A DNA stretch of 64,000 nucleotides from Halorubrum salsamenti (lineage in GTDB: Archaea > Halobacteriota > Halobacteria > Halobacteriales > Haloferacaceae): positions 868,001 through 932,000 of the forward strand of contig NZ_VCNL01000001.1 of NCBI RefSeq assembly GCF_007671685.1, given 5' to 3'. The position numbers and the translations under genes were made by a program. The stretch's first letter is position 1. Every line of letters starts with the position of its first letter. Below the pieces are notes generated by a model. The model made no database searches. It was not told where the DNA came from and was given only the letters and a program-made list of their open reading frames with translations. Positions 3,358 through 59,219 of this stretch are shown here, one piece after another.

Positions 3358-3623
3358 GGCTACGGTAGCGTGGAGTCGGCCGGGCGTAATCGTTGCGGTC
3401 GGGGCGGTACGTGTTCGGGAGGATCCCCCGTGCGTCACACGATCTGAATGTCTGGGTCCGTTGAAATCCCCGTCTTCGGATGTATTTTGTGTTAAACGGC
3501 TGGTCGTTGAACGATGGTCTCTTGATCGATATTGGGAGTTGATGTTGCAGTCTGGTGGTGGCGAGACGACGTTTAAACAGCCGCGAGCGAGTTCGCCGAT
3601 CACTTATAAATGAGCGCGGCGCG

Positions 3624-3857
3624 GCGGTGGCGCGCGTCTCCGAGCGCCCAGAGGGCGCGAGTAGCGAGGGACCGAAGGTCCCTCTGACAGCCGGCGGCGA
3701 AGCCGCCGACGAGAGCGCCGTGCGAGGGAGTCGGCCGACCGGAGCGAAGCGACGGGGGCCGACGAGGCTGGGGAAGCGTGAGGCTGCGGTGCGGTTGCGG
3801 GCGGGTGGGACTCGAAGGGGCGCCCGCCTCACGGCTGGGGCTTTGGGGTGTTCACCG
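3624..3857 (+). repeat. Hairpin-rich repeat element, copy A
   Basis: The first of five related elements; it fills the 669-bp gap between the helicase start and the GNAT stop. In order: GCGCGCGTCTC opening with an inner GCGCCC-aga-GGGCGC triloop hairpin; perfect triloop hairpins GAGGGACC-gaa-GGTCCCTC (3666-3684) and CGGCGGC-gaa-GCCGCCG (3692-3708); a GTCGGCC/GGCCGAC stem; GACGAGGCTGGGG; a CGTGAGGC (3777-3784)/GCCTCACG (3826-3833) closing stem; and the 3' block GGCTGGGGCTTTGG...TTCACC. The long loop of copies D and E is missing. The motif tcacttataaat occurs on both sides (3600-3611 and 3900-3911). No coding capacity was seen. The rest of the gap (3358-3623, 3858-4026) holds only AT-rich promoter-like motifs. 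Confidence 0.85.
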
Positions 3858-4026
3858 CGTTGTCGACGGCGATAAATCGCCGCCAGAAACACCGCTCGTT
3901 CACTTATAAATAACCGATGCTCACAGTGGTTCACGTACTCCCGCAATCGCTCACCGCTGTCTCTGTGTCGACCGGGACCGGAACGACCGCGTCTCTTTCT
4001 GGGTGTTTCGACGGAACCGACCGCCC

Positions 4027-27344: not shown

Positions 27345-27420
27345 GGAAGCGTTCTCGCTGGGGCAACGGCGGCATTTTTAAGCATAATTGGGAGAAGGGC
27401 GGTCACTTATTGACAGAGGT

Positions 27421-27786
27421 GCGGTGGCGCGTGCCTCCGAGCGCCCCCAGGGCGCGAGGAGCACGCGCGAGGGAGTCAGTCGCCGGAGCAACGCGGAGGC
27501 GACTGACGAGGCTGGGGAGGTGTGAGGCTGTGCGGTGCGGGCGGGTGGGACTCAGAGGGGCAGTCGCGAGGGCGAAGCACGCTGCAGCAAGCACCGCAGC
27601 GAGCAACGCGAGCGAGGAGCGTGGTTCGAGAGAGCTTTGCTCTCTCGTCATCGCCAGAAATCGGTGATTTCTGGCTAGCAGTCAGAACGCTTTGCGTTCT
27701 GACGACATCACGAAAGGCGCGCAGCGCCTTTCGAACGACAGCAAAGCGCGCGAGTCGTCGCGACTGGGGCTTTGGAGGTCTTCACC
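27421..27786 (+). repeat. Hairpin-rich repeat element, copy B (largest, with a four-hairpin array)
   Basis: This fills the convergent gap between the Lrp and gatE stops. It starts with GCGCGTGC/GCACGCGC (27427-27434 and 27461-27468) around GCGCCC-cca-GGGCGC. The GTCAGTCGCC/GGCGACTGAC stem, GACGAGGCTGGGG and GTGGGACTCAGAGGGGCAG follow, then the outer stem CAGTCGCGA/TCGCGACTG (27561-27569 and 27758-27766). Inside this loop lie four consecutive perfect triloop hairpins: 27627-27647 (ttt), 27653-27675 (ggt), 27681-27703 (ttt) and 27711-27733 (gca). It ends in GCTTTGGAGGTCTTCACC. Open frames across it are not believable proteins. Confidence 0.88.
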
Positions 27787-27832
27787 GTCGAGTCATCGAT
27801 CGCGTATAGACAGCCACACCACACGCCGAGAT

Positions 27833-29716: not shown

Positions 29717-29809
29717 TACGCCTCACTCCGGCGGCGCGGGACTAAAAGGGTGGCAGTTCGCGCGGGCGATGCGGATCGAGACCACTGATGTTGTTTATAA
29801 ATGACGGGA

Positions 29810-29961
29810 CGGTGGCGCGTGCCTGTGAGCGTCCCCGTGGGACGCGAGCAGCACGCGCGAGGGAGTCGCGAGCAGAGAGGGACCTCCGGTCCCTCATGCA
29901 GCCGGCGCGCAGCGCCGGCGACGAAGCGAGCGACAAGGCTGGGGCTTTGGAGGTGTTCACC
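29810..29961 (+). repeat. Hairpin-rich repeat element, copy C (internally deleted)
   Basis: The shortest full copy, upstream of gatE. GCGCGTGC/GCACGCGC (29815-29822 and 29851-29858) encloses GCGTCCC-cgt-GGGACGC, a compensatory variant of the GCGCCC/GGGCGC hairpin. Two perfect triloop hairpins follow: GAGGGACC-tcc-GGTCCCTC (29877-29895) and GCCGGCGC-gca-GCGCCGGC (29901-29919). AAGGCTGGGG then joins directly to CTTTGGAGGTGTTCACC: everything that other copies hold between the two GGCTGGGG repeats is absent. TATA-like motifs (tttataaat, tttataag) lie on each side. Confidence 0.85.
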
Positions 29962-29991
29962 GGCGATCGATAGTCACTATTTATAAGCGAG

Positions 29992-30010
29992 CGGCTGGGG
30001 CTTTGGAAGT
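29992..30010 (+). repeat. Remnant of the hairpin repeat (3' block only)
   Basis: CGGCTGGGGCTTTGGAAGT, the 3' block of the element, stands alone 30 bases after copy C and directly behind its own tttataag box. It appears to be a solo end left by recombination or partial duplication. The rest of the gap up to the tRNA (30011-30134) shows nothing recognisable. Confidence 0.65.
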
Positions 30011-41189: not shown

Positions 41190-41205
41190 CGTATTTAAAC
41201 CAGTA

Positions 41206-41463
41206 CGGTGGCGCGTGCCGCCGAGCGCCCAGCGGGCGCGAGGGGCACGCGCGAGGGAGTCAGTCGCCGGAGCGAAGCGGAGGCGACTGACGAGGCTGGG
41301 GAGGTGTGAGGTGCTGTGCGGTCGCGGTCGGGTGAGACTCAAAGGGGCAGCCGCGAGGCGGGCACAGGCGACGTAAGCACCGCAGGGAGTGAGCGGAGCG
41401 AACGACTGAGGAGCGCAACGAGCGTGTGCCCGCCTCGCGGCTGGGGCTTTGGAGGTGGTCACC
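41206..41463 (+). repeat. Hairpin-rich repeat element, copy D
   Basis: This fills the convergent gap between the DUF790 stop and the PUA-like gene stop. It has GCGCGTGC/GCACGCGC (41211-41218 and 41245-41252) around GCGCCC-agc-GGGCGC, then GTCAGTCGCC/GGCGACTGAC, GACGAGGCTGGGGAGGTGTG and GACTCAAAGGGGCAGC. A perfect 19-bp closing stem (41348-41366 and 41425-41443, from CAGCCGCGAG to CTCGCGGCTG) encloses an about 58-base loop. It ends with GGCTGGGGCTTTGGAGGT and TCACC. Flanking AT motifs are tatttaaac (5') and tttataaat (3'). Confidence 0.88.
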
Positions 41464-41543
41464 GTCGATCAGTAGCCACCCGCGTATGGCCGAGCGGGAA
41501 TTAACCATTTATAAATAACAAAACGATTCATCGCCGCGGTCCG

Positions 41544-58613: not shown

Positions 58614-58792
58614 GTGCCCTCCGATCGTTGACAACGGATCTACCGCATTTCCGGCGGAATCCGTCGACTCGCCGTGGTCAGTACGGCAACAGCGCCGAGT
58701 GATAGCGGGAGTGGGTATTGCAGTTCGGTGGTATCGATTTAGTTATTTAAATAGACCTGAGCCACGGCATCGATCGCTTATAAACGAGGGTT

Positions 58793-59059
58793 GCGGTTGG
58801 CGCGCGCCTGCGAGCGGCCGCCCCCGGCGGCCGCGAGTCAGCGCGTGCGAGGGACGCGGTGAGCGCTCGGAGAGCGCGAACCGCGAGGCTGGGGAGGCGT
58901 GAGGTGCGGTTGCGGTGCTGTACGGGTGGGATTCAAAGGGGCAGCCGGCGAGGCGGGCGCAGGTGACGTAAGCACTGCAGGGAGCGAGCAGCACGAGCGA
59001 CCGAAGCGCGCAGCGAGCGTGCGCCCGCCTCGCCGGCTGGGGCTTTGGAAGTCTTCACC
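58793..59059 (+). repeat. Hairpin-rich repeat element, copy E
   Basis: This fills most of the 606-bp convergent gap between the small MutS-linked gene and the GH15 gene. GCGCGCGC/GCGCGTGC encloses GCGGCCGCC-ccc-GGCGGCCGC. CGCGGT/ACCGCG then encloses GCGCTC-gga-GAGCGC. GAGGCTGGGGAGGCGTG and GATTCAAAGGGGCAGC follow. A perfect 20-bp closing stem (58942-58961 and 59020-59039) surrounds a 58-base loop similar to copy D's. It ends GGCTGGGGCTTTGGAAGTCTTCACC. CGATCSCTTATAAAC (S = G or C) lies on both sides (58771-58785 and 59070-59084). The rest of the gap (58614-58770 and 59085-59219) contains only scattered TATA-like motifs. Confidence 0.88.
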
Positions 59060-59219
59060 GCAAAGCCGTCGATCCCTTATAAACAGCCGACAGCAACACC
59101 ACAATCCGACTTATAAACGGCTACTCTCACGACGTACTACACTCACTCCCGCTATCGGTCACGAAGCAGCCATCAGCGGCCGATCGGTTCCACAGAACCG
59201 ATTTAAAAACCCCGCTCAG

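Follow-up and report, generated by a model that had tools for sequence, protein, structure and literature searches.

A dispersed, non-coding intergenic element of ~260 nt is present in many copies in the genome of Halorubrum salsamenti, and we hold, with modest confidence, that it is best read as a non-autonomous MITE/PATE-like mobile repeat of haloarchaea whose fold is under selection. Copies A to E in the 64,000-nucleotide stretch analysed here (the window) are all members of this family. Allowing up to 3 mismatches, the 20-nt core GAGGYTGGGGARGYGTGAGG had 96 matches in the genome, compared with 7 for the reversed control, and the 3′ motif GGCTGGGGCTTTGGAGGT had 136, compared with 10 for its control. 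These correspond to ~91 distinct element copies by the core; a BLAST search with copy D as the query returned ~40 scored copies. Subfamilies of near-identical copies, long forms with inverted repeats included, were observed. With at most 1 mismatch, the core was found in all 46 same-genus genomes (13–194 matches in each, 0 for the control), so that copy number differs 15-fold within the genus, and in 69 of 391 genomes of the class, representing 13 of 86 genera. The named matches are mostly from Halorubrum, with others from Haloparvum, Halorussus, Halosimplex, and Halobellus. The element, a complex fold carried by all genomes sampled in the genus, has no counterpart in Rfam: no family reached the gathering score, and the best chance match had an E-value of 5.8. 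A phage origin was rejected after 50,697 phage records yielded 0 matches, and plasmids yielded three, all partial. No description of the element was found in the open-access papers searched.

On one strand, the element is predicted to adopt a closed multi-hairpin fold composed of P1, P2, P3, a G-rich core, and a long rod, P4. Copy D occupies positions 41205–41465 of the plus strand, from the proposed P1 (41205–41210) to its partner strand (41460–41465). Its ends are paired in the minimum-energy structure (fold z = −7.35; −9.70 for the P4 part). P1 is kept as a proposed helix only, since its pairing showed little covariation over 118 copies, which were moreover located by a motif anchor. The predicted P2 (41211–41252) consists of an outer helix and an inner hairpin (41225–41230 with 41234–41239); the inner hairpins occur as numerous alleles with loops of mostly 3 nt, and, judging from the letters, tandem G.A pairing is possible between the GAG and CGA flanks in copy D. 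The predicted P3 hairpin, GTCAGTCGCC/GGCGACTGAC, is located at 41259–41291, and is followed by the conserved G-rich core GAGGCTGGGGAGGTGTGAGG (20 nt, 41292–41311), which was defined by its genome-wide matches relative to the control. In many copies P3 carries GGAGCGAAGCGGA (41269–41281 in the window, for example). GCGAAGC is known as a very stable DNA mini-hairpin, which may hint at a role at the level of DNA.

The preliminary description of this DNA had reported that the arms of a long closing stem pair over 19 of 19 bases in copy D and 20 of 20 in copy E. Both counts are correct: 41348–41366 (the P4 5′ arm of D) is the exact reverse complement of 41425–41443 (the 3′ arm), and 58942–58961 is that of 59020–59039. 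No other perfect inverted repeat in the window with a span of 300 nt or less is as long as these two, and 20 first-order Markov sequences contained none longer than 16 bp. The shorter stems reported with them are also present (GTCAGTCGCC/GGCGACTGAC in B and D, GTCGGCC/GGCCGAC in A, CGCGGT/ACCGCG in E, and GCGTCCC/GGGACGC in C). The extent of the closing stem had been underestimated, as pairing continues past a 3 × 3 internal loop, GGG (41345–41347) facing GGG (41444–41446), into a helix formed by CAAAG (41340–41344) and CTTTG (41447–41451). The rod therefore consists of the stem first described and the CAAAG/CTTTG helix, separated by the loop. The conserved 3′ motif GCTGGGGCTTTGGAGGT (41440–41456) contains the second GGG and CTTTG, and the distal part of P4 (41367–41424) is conserved and hairpin-forming.

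Differences between the arms of D and E are indeed matched on both sides, but they are not substitutions alone, since one whole base pair has been inserted. Comparison of D with E is not in itself proof of compensation, given that entire hairpins can also be moved by processes acting on DNA, and the differences between D and E, among A, B, and E, and in C are largely those between distinct hairpin alleles rather than point-by-point compensation. Compensation between copies was sought in a large alignment of 134 distinct copies, using a null in which substitutions were re-dealt along FastTree branches. Four column pairs were significant at E < 0.05, two in P3 and two in P4; all four lie in predicted helices, as do the six pairs with the best scores. 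As in structured RNAs, the proposed helices covary significantly, against a tree null that assumes no exchange between copies, though exchange occurs. To fix the P3 register, its first three letters were used; the 3′ arm had no part in this choice, although the two P3 classes were already known at that point. In the CAAAG/CTTTG helix, pair 41341–41450 is A-T in 121 copies, G-C in 18, G.T in 4, and A.C in 4 (Fisher, 9e-16). Folding a general alignment to a consensus gave a poor result, since hairpins of variable length misalign.

Pairing is not all that is conserved. The proposal that selection acts on pairing and not on sequence does not stand, given that the 20-nt core and the GGG/GGG loop are constrained in sequence; of 136 copies, 128 have GGG on both sides of the loop, which places some unpaired letters under constraint alongside pairing. 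This observation bears on a purely DNA-level explanation, in which template switching, fold-back, and gene conversion would keep the arms complementary with no selection on folding. Events of the required kind, which the preliminary description had named as a possible counter-argument, do occur, and they move both arms together. Identical P3 hairpins are joined to many different P2 and P4 partners, and orthologues of the D locus carry differing hairpin alleles; hairpins therefore change as whole modules. Four of 149 copies (L150, L184, L202, and L230), including three from the H. salsamenti genome, have the interior of P4 in reverse orientation between its arms, as expected for the flip of a palindrome interior. 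In one fold-back copy (L300 1954, minus strand; G000:C15, ~251400), the right end is repeated in inverted orientation as the left arm, and GGG/GGG has become CCC/GGG. The predominance of 3-nt loops, insertion of whole base pairs, and tolerance of A.C mismatches in stems also agree with maintenance at the DNA level. However, copying of arms would have made the loop pair (GGG/CCC), as happened in L300, while the mismatch is retained in 128 of 136 copies and the helices on both sides of it covary; arm-copying alone would thus be insufficient. In addition, stem intermediates changed on one side only are common among the copies, so the arms are not always corrected in one step. We therefore regard an explanation by DNA processes alone as unlikely. 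The fold is conserved while the hairpins vary, and the element is probably mobile, with a fold that matters.

The level at which the fold acts is a separate matter; the RNA level implied by the preliminary description was not borne out. On the tree, 61 stem changes on the plus strand led to G.U and 30 led to A.C. This excess does not prove RNA folding, since C>T changes were well above G>A changes per site in unpaired columns, a bias in the same direction, and the argument was dropped after this control. The plus strand also folds better than the minus strand, but shuffled sequences behave likewise, making the energy difference compositional. A tRNA yardstick was abandoned, as it offered too few stems. 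RNA and DNA folds could not be separated on these data.

We consider it rather doubtful that the element is a multicopy structured non-coding RNA, with copies transcribed from their own promoter or by 3′ UTR read-through, a cellular function for the product, and a copy number set by function or dosage. The significant covariation, the conserved internal loop, the 61:30 ratio, the strong folding, and the possible tandem G.A motifs would all suit such an RNA. So would a TATA-like box located upstream at a near-fixed distance. In copy D, this box, TATTTAAA, is at 41192–41199 (plus strand), and it is kept at the D locus in several species; in 59 copies of the H. salsamenti genome, a TTATAAA/TTTAAA-like box starts 13–22 nt upstream of GGTGG, mostly 14–17 nt. 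Yet a box usually 14–17 nt before P1 would place a start ~25 nt downstream of it inside P2. The unpaired-site bias and the compositional strand difference described above weaken the case further, and the 15-fold variation in copy number, the gain or loss of sites, and the inverted P4 interiors also argue against it. A second TATA-like box, in the 3′ flank, is usually 41–44 nt from GCTGGGG; copy D has a degenerate box at that distance, and TTTATAAA (41508–41515) at 68 nt. Less probable again, and quite unlikely in our opinion, is a SINE-like mobile RNA of archaea that is transcribed, folds with a G-rich internal loop, and is copied back into the genome up to ~200 times, or a guide or structural RNA of an unrecognised genus-wide mobilising machinery.

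In seven genomes (H. salsamenti included), the element lies, always in one orientation, between the two convergent genes that flank copy D; six others, among them the closest relative (94% identity), have a short spacer devoid of it between these genes. Counting against mobility, copies present at orthologous sites in several species suggest that many are old. When spacers were classified with a simple codon-composition gene caller, 39 of 86 copies were in convergent spacers and the other 47, which include 9 in divergent spacers, were not, counts that stand without a genome-wide expectation. The preference for convergent and the rarity of divergent spacers fit an element tolerated away from promoters, and, together with presence and absence at the D locus, they fit a mobile and mostly tolerated one. 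The same convergent enrichment, and the start of copy D a few nt downstream of a stop codon, could point to a terminator or insulator between convergent genes. This function is highly improbable, as 47 of 86 copies are not between convergent genes, several species lack the element at the very same convergent pair, and no T-run is found downstream of P4.

Among known systems, REP/BIME, ERIC, BOX, and RUP are structured intergenic repeats of bacteria, present as dozens to hundreds of folded copies per genome. The element resembles them in this respect, but is archaeal, longer, multi-domain, and unrelated in sequence, with no mobilising gene identified. The nearest published kinds are the MITEs, PATEs, and SMRs of Haloquadratum (PMC3119063). 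PATEs of Haloquadratum walsbyi are palindrome-associated transposable elements that are dispersed, are too short for a transposase, and have near-terminal palindromes; their ends are shared with IS605-type transposons, and they lack terminal inverted repeats (PMC3119063). The element is likewise haloarchaeal, non-coding, heterogeneous, high in copy number, dispersed, too short for a transposase, and equipped with near-terminal palindromes that acquire further small inserts. It differs from PATEs in folding into several hairpins, with the GGG/GGG loop conserved, and in that no such shared ends were found at TnpB loci. As for terminal inverted repeats, D-type copies show none and the long forms have them. 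With MITEs, the element shares short, non-coding, dispersed copies and, in the long forms A and E, terminal inverted repeats; unlike MITEs, it has no parent transposon found in the genome and no clear target duplication, and D-type copies are without inverted repeats. SMRs, or small mobile repeats, insert within palindromes (PMC3119063); the hairpin blocks inside P2, P3, and P4 are similar by analogy, the sequences having been left uncompared.

Searches for the source of mobility were negative within their scope. No transposase with ends matching those of the element was found, and no parent transposon with long-form termini was detected in the H. salsamenti genome at the sensitivity used. Derivation from IS605/TnpB elements was not supported, as 30 TnpB loci from 11 genomes, with ~1.5 kb on each side, lacked the core, and, apart from one weak end-motif match, also lacked the ends of the element; the test leaves room for more distant IS605 elements. 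No consistent target-site duplication was found, and the GATC at the ends may be part of the element.

In the mobile-repeat reading that we favour, the family would spread in the form of DNA, using a transposase provided in trans. The folded strand, whether single-stranded DNA or RNA, would be recognised by the mobilising machinery or by a host protein, and such recognition would explain why selection keeps both pairing and specific unpaired bases. The variety of hairpins would arise through ordinary mutation, with entire hairpins being swapped between copies or flipped. The element hints at a hitherto unrecognised factor in haloarchaea that mobilises or binds it, and its hairpin variants, thousands in number, form a natural collection with which selection on a fold can be parted from maintenance of palindromes at the DNA level.

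The remaining copies in the window, all on the plus strand, illustrate the range of forms. Copy A (3600–3870) is a long form with a degenerate terminal inverted repeat and a deleted P4 interior. Copy E (58790–59070) is also a long form, with the terminal inverted repeat GATAGCGGGAGTG/CACTCCCGCTATC outside the element. The long forms (window 3520–3935 and 58695–59160; L017, L182, L198, and others) have the terminal inverted repeat CGATAGCGGGAGTG; their outer arms are of two alternative kinds, found in either order. The inverted repeats that bound them occur only with the element, and are lacking in short forms such as D. That these X and Y arms form a separate repeat targeted by the long form was rejected, as the pattern used revealed no empty X-Y site and the arms occurred only with the element. 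Additional perfect hairpins are present in some copies, as are ~57-nt 3′-end units repeated in tandem and internal deletions; the deletions are consistent with recombination between the two GGCTGGGG repeats. In copy C (29805–30010), the core and P4 are missing and an extra 3′-end unit is present; the loss resembles, and is consistent with, the product of recombination between two such GGCTGGGG repeats. Copy B (27418–27790) has tandem perfect hairpins inserted in distal P4: a ~120-nt block (27625–27745) of four with 3-nt loops, which is also found in L038 and L303 and, being common to several copies, resembles a small mobile repeat. In L250 and L245, downstream of the D-locus orthologue, the ~57-nt 3′-end unit is repeated in tandem, with a TATA-like box in each repeat.
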